Shown: positions 60,265 to 64,000 of the stretch, in pieces
Layout of the letters: the number at the start of each line of letters is the position of its first letter
Numbering within the stretch: the stretch's first letter is position 1
Assembly: GCA_001603275.1 (NCBI GenBank)
Contig: LUYM01000006.1
Coordinates: 124,001 to 188,000, forward strand
Reading direction: 5' to 3'
Length of the DNA: 64,000 nt
Origin: Actinomycetales bacterium Actino_02
GTDB taxonomy: Bacteria; Actinomycetota; Actinomycetes; Propionibacteriales; Propionibacteriaceae
The notes under the pieces: generated by a model
Databases searched by the model: none
The model's input: only the letters and a program-made list of their open reading frames with translations
Told to the model about the DNA's origin: nothing
Position numbers and translations under genes: made by a program

Positions 60265-61680
60265 TCAAGTCGCTGTGGGCCCGCGCTCTTCCGGCTCCGT
60301 GCCTTTGCGACGAAACCGAGAGCTGATCGCGCCAGCCGCCTTCGCGGCGACCCCGGAGGCGGTTCCTGCGACATTCGTCGCTGCTCCAGCGATGGTCGCG
60401 CCGGTGTCGGTCAAGGCGGTCAGGGCTCGCGGTTTGTCGGGGACCCCATCGCCGTCGAGATCGATGGCCTGGAACGCCTGGACGGCCTTGCTGCCGACTC
60501 GGCCAGCGGTCTCTAGTCCATCCGATCCGACCTTCTTGGCGGTGTCCCACGCGTCTGCTGCAGCATCAGTCCAGCGCCGCGCTTCGAGGGCTTCAGCGTC
60601 GCGGGTCAGGCCGAGTCGTCCATGGAACTCGGCAACACCGCTTGTCACCACGGTCGTCGAGCGAACGATCGACGGCGAAGCGATCGGATGCACCAGGACA
60701 CCGGCGTTCGCTCGCTCCGCTGCCGCGTTCATCCGGTCGATCAGCTGGGCGGTGCTGCGCGCGATCAGTTCGAGCCGCTTCTCCCGGGCGATCCGCAAGC
60801 CCATCCGGTGGTCGTTCAGCTCCTCGGGGGACGCGTCCAGGACACGATCGAGTTCGAGGATGGCCACCCCGTCCTGCAGCCGGACACACTGAGCCAGCAC
60901 CGCGAGCCACTCCTGAACCTTGGCCTCAGCATCCTTGGCGACGCTGGACAACTCGCCCATCTCCGACTTGCGCTCAAGCTTCTCGGCGAGCGCGTCCAGC
61001 TGGCGAAGCGCGTAGGCCTGTGTGCGAGAGAGAACGAGCGCGGTGGACTGGACCTTCGACCACGTGACCTCCCCGACCCGGCCGACCTCCTCGCGGATCG
61101 TCATCGCCTCGTCGATCATTTGGCTGGCGCCGATCATGTCGGCGAAGACCGCATCCTTGTGCGCGCGCAGGATGTCGTCGACCTTCTCGTCGATGGCAAC
61201 GAGGTAGTCGGTGATCTCGTCCATCATCTGCTTCATGGCGAGCTGTGCCATCACCCCGGCCGCTCCCGCTAGGAGTGCAGGGTTGGTGGCCATCGAGGTT
61301 GGACCGGTGACGATCTGGATCCACGACTCGATCGAGCCGCGATCACCGATCATCGCGTGGCTGACGCCCGGTGTGGTGGTCGGGGTGAGGCCCAAGCGAT
61401 GCACCTTCTCGGCGGACTCGGCGGTGAGCTTCACCCAACGCCCGGACTCCGCCGCGACCTGCGACGCCTTGTGGGTCAGGCTCGCCGCAGAGCTGAGCAT
61501 CGGACGCAGCCTCCGGCTCAGATCCTTGGTGGCGCTCCGATCCACGGCAATGGACGTCAGGAATCGCTCAATTTCGGCGGGCTTACCGATAACCGTCAGC
61601 CCGTCCCCGTCGCTGATCAACTGCAGCGCGTTGCCCGGCTCGGGAAGCTCCGGGGTGGAGGGCGACTCTGCGTCCGTCAT
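60265..61680 (-). CDS. Unrecognised 471-aa helical protein with one Asp-rich loop
   Basis: No family recognised. Mostly helical (KPAEIERFLTSIAVDRSATKDLSRRLRPMLSSAASL, then MMDEITDYLVAIDEKVDDILRAHKDAVFADMIGA). A hydrophobic segment near 137-150 (NPALLAGAAGVMAQLAM) could insert in a membrane or pack in a helical bundle. Near residue 413, DLDGDGVPDKPRAL is a single EF-hand/dockerin-like Ca loop. The C-terminus is Ala/Gly-rich and ends in a basic tail. The helical layout is reminiscent of pore-forming or SMODS-type helical effectors but this is not evidence of function. Confidence 0.65.
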   Translation of the reverse strand: MTDAESPSTPELPEPGNALQLISDGDGLTVIGKPAEIERFLTSIAVDRSATKDLSRRLRPMLSSAASLTHKASQVAAESGRWVKLTAESAEKVHRLGLTPTTTPGVSHAMIGDRGSIESWIQIVTGPTSMATNPALLAGAAGVMAQLAMKQMMDEITDYLVAIDEKVDDILRAHKDAVFADMIGASQMIDEAMTIREEVGRVGEVTWSKVQSTALVLSRTQAYALRQLDALAEKLERKSEMGELSSVAKDAEAKVQEWLAVLAQCVRLQDGVAILELDRVLDASPEELNDHRMGLRIAREKRLELIARSTAQLIDRMNAAAERANAGVLVHPIASPSIVRSTTVVTSGVAEFHGRLGLTRDAEALEARRWTDAAADAWDTAKKVGSDGLETAGRVGSKAVQAFQAIDLDGDGVPDKPRALTALTDTGATIAGAATNVAGTASGVAAKAAGAISSRFRRKGTEPEERGPTAT

Positions 61681-61723
61681 GGCAGCGATGCTAACGGTGT
61701 CCGACCTCTGACGCGGCCCAACC

Positions 61724-62150
61724 TCAGGAGTCGGCGATGGTGCTCAGAAGCGCGCAGGCGCGGGCGATGGCGCCCTGGTCGTCGGCGCTGATGGCGCGGA
61801 GTTGGGTGTCCAGCCAGGCGTGGCGTTGGGCCTGGGTGATCACGGCGATCTCGTCGCCTTCGGGGGTGGTGCGGAAGAGCACCTTGCGGCGGTCCTTTCG
61901 GTCGGGGTGCGGGTCGCGTAGCCGGCAGGGTGAGCCGGTGCACGCTGTGGCTCATGGACGCGGGTGCGGCCTGGCCATGGTCGCTGAGCTCGGTGAGGGT
62001 CAGGGGGCCGTGCCTGTGCAGCCAGATGAGGACGTCCAGGCTGGTGTCGCCGAGGCTGCCGCCCGGGCGTTCGCTGCGGAAGCGGCGATAGAGCCGCGCC
62101 ACCGTGGGCCTCACCTGAGTGCCGAGGCCGACCCCGTCGAGGGCGTCGAC
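61724..62150 (-). pseudogene. MarR-family regulator, frameshifted
   Basis: The N-terminal half reads RPTVARLYRRFRSERPGG, LDVLIWLHRHGPLTLTELSDHGQAAPASMSHSVHRLT. After about 61930 the frame is lost, and the rest of the MarR fold (KDRRKVLFRTTPEGDEIAVITQAQRHAWL...ALLSTIADS) continues in another frame to the stop at 61724. Between them GYATRTP lies in the third frame, so two single-base losses explain the break. The start codon is not clear (about 62114-62150). Either a pseudogene or two sequence errors in GC-rich runs. Confidence 0.8.
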
Positions 62151-62173
62151 GTCCGCGCTCCCGGATGCTGAAC

Positions 62174-63295
62174 CTAGAGCCAGCCCTGGCGCCGGAAGGT
62201 GCGGTACAGCAGCAGGCAGACGGTCGCCATCCCGATCAGCACCGCCGGGTAGCCCCACGGGCTGGCCAGCTCGGGCATGAACTGGAAGTTCATCCCGTAG
62301 ATGCCGGCGATCATCGTCGGGACGGCCGCAATCGCCACCCAGGCCGAGATCTTGCGCATGTCCTCGTTCTCCGAGACCGAGAGTCGGGCGACGGCGGCCT
62401 GCAGGATCGACGACATCACTTCGTCGTAGCCGCCCACCTGCTCACGGACCTGTTCGAGGTGATCGTGCACGTCCAGGAAGTACTGCCGCAAGTCGCGGTC
62501 GCCCTGCTGGTCGGCGAGCTTGCGCAGCGGGCCGCCGAGCGGACCGACCGTCCGCTTCATCTCGACCAGGTCTCGCTTGAGCTGGTAGATGCGCTCGACC
62601 TGTGGCGTGCCGCCGGGGGCGAACACGTGGCTCTCGATCTCGTCGACGTCCTCGCCCACCTCGTCCGCGACGCGCAGATAGTTGTCCACCACGCTGTCGA
62701 TCACGCCGTGCAACACCGCGATCGGGCCGAGGCGCAGCTGCTCGGGGCGAGACTCGAGGGTTCGGCGCACCTGACCCAGCGGTGCGAGCTGCCCGTGTCG
62801 CACCGACAGGGCGTACCACGAGCCGACCAGGACGGTCGCCGTTCCGGTTTGGACGATCTCGCCGCCCTCGCTGCGGACGTCGCTGTCGATGTAGCCCAGG
62901 GTGCGCATCGAAAGGAACGTGGTGCCGTCGTCGTGGCGCTCGAGCTTGGGACGCTGCCGCGAGTTGCCCGCGTCCTCCACCGCCAGCGGGTGCAGGTCGA
63001 ACACGTGACGCAGGGCGTCCAGCTGTTCGGGGGTCGGCTCGAACAGGCCCAGCCAGACGAAGCCGTTCCCGGCTGCTGCCGCGCGGCAGGCTGCCGGGAA
63101 TTCCGCGGCGGGCTGGCGCTCGCCGTCGACGTAGTGTGCCCAGTCGACCGCTGCGAGCAGGGGGTCGCTCGCTGGGCGCGCGGCGACCAGCTCGGGTTCG
63201 ATCAGGCGGACGGGTGTCGCCCGCCTCCGGGCGACCATGGGGCGCAGGCCAGTCGGCAGGCCCAGGCGTGGGTAGATCGGGGTGTTGGAGTTCAT
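62174..63295 (-). CDS. corA: CorA-family magnesium/cobalt channel
   Basis: A 373-aa CorA channel. The large cytosolic N-terminus (PVRLIEPELVAARP..., YPRLGL) leads to helices HDHLEQVREQVGGYDEVMSSIL, then TM1 with the YGMNF signature at about residues 335-339 (AGIYGMNFQFMPELASPWGY) and TM2 (PAVLIGMATVCLLLYRTF). It imports Mg(II), Co(II) or Ni(II). GAAGGAG lies 6 bases before ATG 63295, but this site is buried in a hairpin. A leader ORF lies upstream, so expression is probably controlled in the mRNA leader. Confidence 0.95.
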   Translation of the reverse strand: MNSNTPIYPRLGLPTGLRPMVARRRATPVRLIEPELVAARPASDPLLAAVDWAHYVDGERQPAAEFPAACRAAAAGNGFVWLGLFEPTPEQLDALRHVFDLHPLAVEDAGNSRQRPKLERHDDGTTFLSMRTLGYIDSDVRSEGGEIVQTGTATVLVGSWYALSVRHGQLAPLGQVRRTLESRPEQLRLGPIAVLHGVIDSVVDNYLRVADEVGEDVDEIESHVFAPGGTPQVERIYQLKRDLVEMKRTVGPLGGPLRKLADQQGDRDLRQYFLDVHDHLEQVREQVGGYDEVMSSILQAAVARLSVSENEDMRKISAWVAIAAVPTMIAGIYGMNFQFMPELASPWGYPAVLIGMATVCLLLYRTFRRQGWL

Positions 63296-63300
63296 GCGTT

Positions 63301-63317
63301 GCTCCTTCAGGTGGAGC
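63301..63317 (-). promoter_or_regulatory. Hairpin that hides the corA ribosome site
   Basis: On the minus strand GCTCC (63313-63317) pairs with GGAGC (63301-63305) around ACCTGAA. The arm on the right contains the AAGGAG Shine-Dalgarno of corA (63303-63308), so the hairpin would block translation when formed. Confidence 0.75.
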
Positions 63318-63359
63318 CCGCAGCAGTCTGACGCAGTCAGCTCACAAAGGTGCTGCGGG
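63317..63359 (-). promoter_or_regulatory. 9-bp stem in the corA leader
   Basis: CCCGCAGCA (63351-63359) and TGCTGCGGG (63317-63325) form a perfect 9-bp stem. Its left arm is inside the leader ORF (codons SRSTF) and its right arm shares one base with the hairpin that hides the corA ribosome site. The two structures therefore compete for the junction, which is what a ribosome-stalling switch would need. Confidence 0.7.
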
Positions 63360-63399
63360 AGGTCGGCGGGATGGGTATCAGGGGACTACCAGGTGACAT
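63337..63399 (-). CDS. Proline-rich leader peptide upstream of corA
   Basis: A 20-codon ORF starts at ATG 63399 behind a strong ribosome site (GAAGGAGG at about 63407-63414) and ends at TGA 63337. It reads MSPGSPLIPIPPTSRSTFVS; five of the first twelve residues are Pro. It ends 42 bases before corA. Proline-rich leaders (for example mgtL) sense Mg through ribosome stalling. The overlap of its last codons with a stem supports a regulatory role. The upstream stretch 63415-63514 holds the promoter region only. Confidence 0.65.
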   Translation of the reverse strand: MSPGSPLIPIPPTSRSTFVS

Positions 63400-63514
63400 C
63401 CGCCTCACCTCCTTCATTCGAGCGCCACGGCGCATGACCGCGTGATCCAGGAGAAGGCTAGACCTCCGCGACGGCGGACGAAAACCGTCCGCCGGTCCCG
63501 AGGATGAGCCGCGA

Positions 63515-63640
63515 TCATGCAGGTGAGCCCGATCTCGGCGCCCACGGGAACAGCCGGGTGAGCAGGGCGTAGATCAGGGCGACGCTGACCGTGACCTGGT
63601 TGGCCTCAAGGGCGGGAACCAGTGGGAGCGCGCCGACAGG
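63515..63640 (-). pseudogene. Possible end fragment of a polytopic membrane protein
   Basis: A minus-strand frame reads ALPLVPALEANQVTVSVALIYALLTRLFPWAP then a stop at 63515. This resembles the last TM helix of flippase-like (LPG-synthase TM) proteins, but no upstream homology is visible in the same frame. The remaining bases to 64000 show no supported gene on either strand. Confidence 0.25.
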
Positions 63641-64000
63641 CCGTCCACTGCCACCCGGCAAGGGCCGTCCGAATGAGGGTGGAGGCCGCCGTCGTCGTCC
63701 ACCCGCAGACGGCGATCACGTCCGAGCCACGAACCCCCCACGCTGAGCCACTGCCCGGACGGAGAGTGGGCTTCATTTCGGGGTGGGCGAGCTGGCACAT
63801 TCGTGGCGAGGTCTTGCTCGATCGTGCCGCCCTGAGCTTGGCGGCCCGAGCCGATGGTTGAATCACGTCGGTCTGACGGGGCGCCGCACGACTCGGCTCG
63901 TCCGCCGCCGTCCGCCCGAGCGAAGGGATTGGTGAGCCGAGTGGCTACGGGAAGTGGCGGTGAGCGCACACGGTTCCTCGGACTGGCGATGAGCCAGGAG

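Follow-up and report, generated by a model that had tools for sequence, protein, structure and literature searches.

A corA gene in the 64-kb stretch of DNA analyzed here (the window) is preceded by a conserved, proline-rich leader ORF of 20 codons, which overlaps a set of alternative RNA stems. On balance, we think it probable from the sequence comparisons described below that this leader is a cis-acting leader-peptide switch on corA, probably acting on translation initiation and probably tuned to Mg2+ by how fast the ribosome moves along the leader or how firmly it stays there. The switch reading is partly supported, and is strengthened, by the conserved prolines, rare codons and length of the leader, by a covarying stem, a hairpin over the corA Shine-Dalgarno (SD) sequence and a third pairing arm, and by a second kind of leader found before other Mg2+ transporter genes.

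Leader ORF upstream of corA

The gene, the leader and the signals around it are as follows.

63295-62174, minus strand: corA, 373 amino acids, predicted CorA-family transporter of Mg2+ (or another divalent cation) (Pfam PF01544, E = 1.2e-51)
63399-63337, minus strand: class I leader ORF MSPGSPLIPIPPTSRSTFVS, 20 codons plus TGA, conserved in six orthologs
63399-63373, minus strand: leader codons 1 to 9, with invariant prolines 3, 6 and 9 and rare codons TCA, AGT and ATA
63414-63405, minus strand: leader ribosome site AAGGAGGTGA, whose GGAGGT doubles as the 5' arm of hairpin H
63460-63455, minus strand: candidate -10 box TAGCCT, seen by eye in the alignment as TAnnnT in all six orthologs

The match of the window CorA to the NCBIfam corA model TIGR00383 (E = 3.1e-54, 184.5 bits) falls slightly below the cut-off of 200.75. 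Nothing comparable to this leader lies within 400 nt upstream of the genome's second CorA gene. A MarR-like regulator, apparently split across two frames (61677-62258 and 61724-61882, minus strand; Pfam MarR 22.2 bits, below the cut-off), lies 3' of corA.

An earlier, sequence-only reading of this region had described a 20-codon ORF with a strong ribosome site and five prolines in twelve codons before corA, and this description was accurate. The ORF runs 5' of corA on the minus strand from an ATG at 63399-63397 to a TGA at 63339-63337, with prolines at codons 3, 6, 9, 11 and 12. Its ribosome site AAGGAGGTGA occurs once in the window, against an expected count of 0.09, and AGGAGGTGAGGCGG at this site is invariant in the six orthologs. 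Short ORFs with strong ribosome sites are not rare (19 in the 64-kb window, this leader included), and two of those 19 are richer in prolines, with 6 in 30 codons and 8 in 34 codons. What sets the leader above chance is that six orthologs keep the ORF length, amino acids 1 to 9 and both stems.

Conservation of the leader

We compared the leader across a genus sample of 30 genomes, several of them metagenome-assembled, of which 25 have a CorA match. Nine CorA matches, this one included, are 66 to 100% identical to the window CorA and are taken here as close orthologs; six of these carry the leader, with a length of 20 codons in every case. The six sequences come from one genus, and this genome and G001 are 96% identical in CorA; so small a set is a point against the switch. 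Their consensus reads M-S-P-G-S-P-L-I-P-[IV]-[PL]-P-T-S-R, with amino acids 1 to 9 kept and prolines 3, 6, 9 and 12 invariant. The sequence-only reading had proposed that corA leaders of relatives be searched for conserved prolines and compensating stem changes, and both were found, the latter in the 9-bp stem described below; it had also named absence of the ORF and stems before orthologous corA genes as evidence against a switch, and here six of the nine close orthologs keep both.

The first 16 codons match this genome at 41 to 45 of 48 bases in the six orthologs, compared to 4 to 11 of 12 bases for codons 17 to 20. At fourfold sites, corA matches this genome at 50 to 74% (46 to 74% across all pairs), and codons 1 to 16 of the leader at 6 to 9 of 10 to 11 sites, so that synonymous change is present in the leader. 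Against G007, the leader fourfold match is 6 of 10, no better than that of corA (55%), which counts against the switch. The rare codons TCA, AGT and ATA are invariant at leader positions 2, 5 and 8. Across the corA genes of the six, none of 79 isoleucines is encoded by ATA, and TCA and AGT account for three and two of 118 serines, respectively; in 13 long ORFs of the window, picked by length and high GC3 and thus biased toward low values, the three codons occur at 0.5 to 2.2 per 1,000.

The leader pattern, with up to three mismatches allowed, was found in 6 of the 30 genus genomes, once in each and always at corA. The exact pattern matched three of 245 genomes of the order, all within the genus, and among 396 genomes of the phylum only this one, so that it was absent outside the genus in both sets. 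None of 27 corA orthologs from other genera of the family has a class I leader, and the short ORFs before them lack a shared motif, several lying at the end of the upstream gene. This narrow range of the class I leader likewise counts against the switch. In three loci from other genera of the family (L139, L141, and L145), corA seems to lie close behind another gene, presumably aminopeptidase-like, and has no leader of its own.

The CorA tree places the six genes with the leader in a single clade (99/97), whose sister group is the three close orthologs that lack it (L008, L009, and L010). These three have GTTCACC-type direct repeats 11 nt apart before corA, and GTTCACC is given as the core of the Streptomyces PHO box (PMC4415409). 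The repeats suggest that phosphate control of corA may take the place of leader control in these three genes. One locus, L005, has the leader plus two GTTCACC units 22 nt apart.

Competing RNA stems

Five RNA features can be drawn around the leader.

63431-63425, minus strand: element P, GCCGTGG here and GCYGYGG across the six sequences, complementary to Q and competing with R for it
63412-63358, minus strand: hairpin H, in which the leader SD GGAGGU (63412-63407) and GGCGG (63404-63400) pair with leader codons 11 to 14
63359-63351, minus strand: element Q, CCCGCAGCA, in leader codons 14 to 17, the 5' arm of the 9-bp stem
63325-63317, minus strand: element R, TGCTGCGGG, past the leader stop, the 3' arm of the 9-bp stem and the upper part of the extended SD hairpin
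63322-63295, minus strand: extended corA SD hairpin, which adds UGCG (63322-63319) paired with CGCA (63298-63295), the A of the start codon included

Given the candidate -10 box, which we infer to function as a promoter, element P would fall inside the transcript. The stem between Q and R is a perfect 9 bp (63359-63351 with 63325-63317), and the tail of the leader overlaps it as the sequence-only reading had claimed, an arrangement kept in the six orthologs. The next hairpin, said to hide the corA SD, pairs GCUCC (63317-63313) with the corA ribosome site GGAGC (63305-63301); it too holds up as a predicted structure and is present in all six sequences. These two hairpins had been described as competing. 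They do have base 63317 in common, but as originally drawn they overlap nowhere else and could form together; it is the extended hairpin that brings the larger conflict. When 33-base tails were folded, a hairpin between R and the SD appeared in all six, at -12.9 to -16.8 kcal/mol, running through R up to a few bases from the start codon or onto it. Since the corA hairpin extends through R, the competition among P:Q, Q:R and R:SD would involve more than a single base, and from their pairing and conservation the leader stems appear to be mutually exclusive.

Q and R are paired in 53 of 54 cells of the six-sequence alignment, with two-sided changes at two columns. For Q:R and the SD hairpin together, 95% of cells pair, compared to 32 to 59% when the partners are slid by one to three columns. 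Shuffles equaled the observed covariation in 11 of 500 trials, and we regard the Q:R covariation as modest: suggestive for sequences this closely related, not proof. G011 is offset by one base in this alignment at the SD hairpin, and its own tail folds as GGCUCC/GGAGCC.

In hairpin H, GGAGGU pairs with 63363-63358 and GGCGG with 63369-63365. Nine of its pairs were counted, and 98% of the cells are paired; where bases vary, the pair is retained as G-U, except for a single C-A in G001. For P:Q, 41 of 42 cells pair, six of the seven columns doing so in all six sequences and the seventh in five; the exception is a C-A mismatch in this very genome, and it counts against the switch. Neither P:Q nor H shows two-sided changes among the six sequences. 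A further point against the switch is that a 4-bp CUCC/GGAG hairpin may still cover the corA ribosome site when Q:R has formed.

Unguided consensus folding yields H, Q:R and the SD hairpin, and the alternative states, when enforced, lie 0 to 10 kcal/mol above the free minimum. Single-sequence folding energy was set aside as evidence; it stays near that of shuffles and is not significant (z of -0.4 to -1.6, with -1.5 for the window region).

Proposed switch mechanism

The mechanism that we infer supposes that the leader is translated, and it assigns an order of states, a direction of control and Mg2+ as the signal. Four RNA elements would take part: P, 5' of the leader; Q, in codons 14 to 17; R, past the stop; and the corA ribosome site up to the AUG. 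On a leader free of ribosomes, H could form, with or without P:Q, and R would stay unpaired; free R, together with CUCC, would then close over the corA ribosome site and turn expression off. A ribosome that is slow or drops off in codons 2 to 9, where prolines 3, 6 and 9 and rare codons TCA, AGT and ATA lie, would open H and P:Q. It would leave Q free, because its front at codon 9 stops before Q: taking a footprint that extends about 12 nt beyond the codon under translation (PMC4833913), the front lies at leader base 39, and Q begins at base 41. Free Q would pair with R, breaking the upper part of the SD hairpin and turning corA on. A ribosome that reaches the stop would cover Q and let R return to the corA site, so that expression would again be off. 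At low Mg2+, early elongation would be slower, and the transporter would thereby be switched on.

Comparison with known Mg2+ transporter leaders

Leader control of Mg2+ transporters, corA included, is already known in Salmonella and E. coli. To our knowledge, control through a ribosome on a leader peptide has been described for Proteobacteria, mainly these two organisms. In the open-licence literature we found no report of leader peptides for corA or other Mg2+ transporter genes in Actinobacteria.

In anatomy, with stems 1:2 and an SD-hiding 3:4 set against 2:3, the window leader appears closest to Salmonella mgtQ and less close to mgtL and corL. The mgtQ leader precedes mgtB and, as its report describes it (PMC8092293), is likewise a short uORF overlapping alternative stems, with a Mg2+ transporter as the target. 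The ribosome site of that transporter is hidden by one stem and freed by a competitor; here the corresponding arrangement is predicted and conserved. The untranslated mgtQ RNA forms 1:2 and 3:4, slow translation favors 2:3, and slow or aborted translation of the uORF favors expression, which is the logic proposed here. The mgtQ ORF has 8 codons, needs Asp2 and Glu5 and lies between two genes, and its conserved proline codon matters for the RNA stem and is not needed as proline. In contrast, the class I leader has 20 codons and its own 5' leader, belongs to another phylum, and has no acidic residue, so that the ribosome-destabilizing acidic codons of the mgtQ type are absent from it. The same source mentions an mgtQ-like ORF for Brucella.

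The mgtL and corL leaders of Salmonella and E. coli (before mgtA and corA, respectively) are described in a second report (PMC11552253). Like the class I leader, both are short ORFs with a ribosome site directly before a Mg2+ transporter gene and have mutually exclusive stems, a feature that here rests on pairing and conservation; mgtL also bears prolines, and corL has a stem of its own that sequesters the leader ribosome site. For both, efficient translation of the leader leads to less transporter expression, and the mechanism proposed here would reproduce this sense as well as the mgtQ logic of 1:2 and 3:4 versus 2:3. By that account mgtL differs in having acidic residues in its N-terminal part along with its prolines, and in Rho-dependent termination in Salmonella, whereas the class I leader has four invariant prolines, no D or E, and a hairpin over the ribosome site of its target. 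The corL leader, set apart by description rather than by alignment, has a single proline in its conserved N-terminal region and is under Rho control.

The sequence-only reading had likened the window leader to mgtL. The short ORF, the alternative stems and the Mg2+ transporter bear out the likeness only loosely; the lack of acidic residues, of an Rfam match and of a visible terminator speaks against it, and mgtQ is the better match in form. The Rfam search covered window positions 62900-64000 and gave no match at E up to 5. Neither the leader nor this genome matched the M-box covariance model (RF00380), which did match the control genomes of B. subtilis and L. lactis. The M-box (ykoK) riboswitch also provides RNA control of Mg2+ transporter genes, including in some Actinobacteria, and a uORF-bearing M-box is described in Mycobacterium tuberculosis (PMC12810186); the latter is a different RNA from the window leader.

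The leader might instead act through Rho-dependent or other premature termination of transcription, as mgtL and corL do, with its C-rich, G-poor DNA (25 C and 13 G of 63) serving as a Rho loading site that is exposed or shielded by translation. The two Salmonella leaders work through Rho (PMC11552253), and Rho acts on the uORF-bearing M-box leader of M. tuberculosis (PMC12810186). However, no U-run follows the stems and no terminator is visible in the leader sequence, and the conserved hairpin on the corA ribosome site itself would be needless for a purely transcriptional switch. We consider termination rather unlikely. This explanation and those taken up below overlap, and their probabilities need not sum to one.

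A second class of leaders

A second proline leader, with the pattern M-x-x-[EQ]-P-P-S and 10 to 20 codons, was found in 14 genomes from six genera and two families. Thirteen of these class II leaders precede other corA genes, and one precedes mgtA.

Class II leaders before corA: loci L016, L017, L029, L030, L174, L177, L178, L189, L192, L193, L195, L196 and L199

A scan of other corA upstream regions first gave L016 (with a single proline, QPS), L017, L029 and L030, and 40 further upstream regions gave L174, L177 and L178. A scan of 110 CorA-hit loci listed short ORFs behind a ribosome site in 20 rows, of which 11 were class I (duplicates and one longer frame included), 3 were class II, and 6 had no shared motif. 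Two pattern searches were blind to the downstream gene. Among 149 genomes of a second family of the order, six matched, five of them before corA; among 197 genomes of this family, 11 matched, seven before corA and one (L202) before mgtA. Together, 13 of 17 matches stand before a Mg2+ transporter gene, a figure that covers forward-pattern matches only; the reversed pattern gave 9 matches in the same searches, so that chance matches are to be expected. For the remaining four (L194, L197, L201, and L207), the 3 kb at each locus hold nothing that matches CorA or MgtA, and in two the start codon is CTG. An earlier, stricter class II pattern was absent from 296 genomes of the phylum, and a looser one matched 3 of 296 genomes of the class, at L189 before corA and at L190 and L191, where neither CorA nor MgtA was matched. 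In L189, the corA ribosome site also seems, by eye, to be part of a short hairpin (GACGG-AGT-CCGTC) immediately 5' of the ATG.

The mgtA locus, L202 (in G009), encodes MRSQPPSTNSK on its minus strand; the leader starts at base 1520, and 93 nt further on begins a gene for an mgtA-type, Mg2+-translocating P-type ATPase. This gene matches TIGR01524 with 577 bits over a 475-residue part, compared to a full-length cut-off of 611, and its best PDB matches are MgtA structures. The tree included nine of the 13 class II corA genes, and these fall in one clade of 13 rows (96/89), four of which are leaderless. Rfam models gave no match to the 14 class II loci (43 kb in all; E limit 0.5). D or E occurs in codons 2 to 4 of 12 of the 14 leaders, L016 with its one proline included; L202 and L206 lack it.

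The presence of class II leaders before two families of Mg2+ transporter is the strongest pointer to Mg2+ as the signal for the proline leaders of this order, and by analogy for the window leader. The leader-peptide switch could instead answer another signal, such as proline-tRNA charging, EF-P activity, the supply of rare tRNAs or a ribosome-targeting compound. Each of these could be sensed through the four invariant prolines and the invariant rare codons, and Salmonella mgtP responds to charged tRNA-Pro (PMC8092293). The target of the window leader is a Mg2+ transporter gene, however, and CorA and MgtA, the targets of class II, are unrelated families; both facts argue against a different signal, which seems to us unlikely.

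Another explanation is a device of RNA alone (SD sequestration, an ion-sensing RNA or a thermosensor), with the ORF and its prolines as by-products of C-rich sequence that pairs with GGAGGU. In both classes, ACCUCC lies opposite the leader ribosome site, although in different frames (Thr-Ser in class I and Pro-Pro in class II). In all 13 class II loci that were folded, the ribosome site pairs with the leader's own Pro-Pro codons, at six of six bases in 12 loci and at five of six in L206, whose hairpin still folds with its one mismatch; much of class II could thus be accounted for by base pairing in the RNA alone. Also in favor, a silent change of the mgtQ proline codon behaved like missense changes (PMC8092293). 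Against such a device, that stem does not include prolines 3, 6 and 9 of class I, and the ORF keeps its 20 codons in all six orthologs despite drift of the last four. Class II keeps Pro-Pro with four codon pairs (CCT CCT, CCT CCC, CCT CCA, and CCC CCG), and L206 does so at the price of one base pair. We rate an RNA-only device as quite improbable. A constitutive helper ORF, whose terminating ribosomes reinitiate at corA and boost its translation without regulation, has been proposed for actinobacterial leader genes at short distance, but it is very improbable here, as the stop-to-start distance is 41 to 58 nt across the six genomes, compared to a peak of 10 to 11 bp in that report (PMC4833913), and the conserved competing stems would be superfluous.

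Common to the two leader classes are a Pro-[Pro/Gly]-Ser core whose serine is encoded by AGT, and pairing of the ribosome site with codons of the same leader. The similarity of CCT GGT AGT CCC in class I to CCT CCT AGT CCC in class II (L174) only suggests a kinship between the two. From the common core and the self-paired ribosome site we propose, tentatively and with somewhat less confidence than the switch on corA itself, that Propionibacteriales control their Mg2+ transporters, namely mgtA and corA genes from at least two clades, by leader peptides of their own, unrelated to mgtL, corL and mgtQ; one ribosome-based Mg2+ sensor, reinvented or inherited, might then serve several transporter families. 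That proline leaders and competing stems precede corA in a distant phylum, and that another kind of leader precedes both corA and mgtA, suggests a more general principle that has arisen more than once. Leaders of 10 to 20 codons are simple and testable, and they would provide a set of very small genes as markers of Mg2+ transporter control in this order.

One further locus, L169 (in G551), has a short ORF, MSDDVSSSHSPRR, with a ribosome site before corA; it is acidic, has no Pro-Pro and is possibly a further type of leader.
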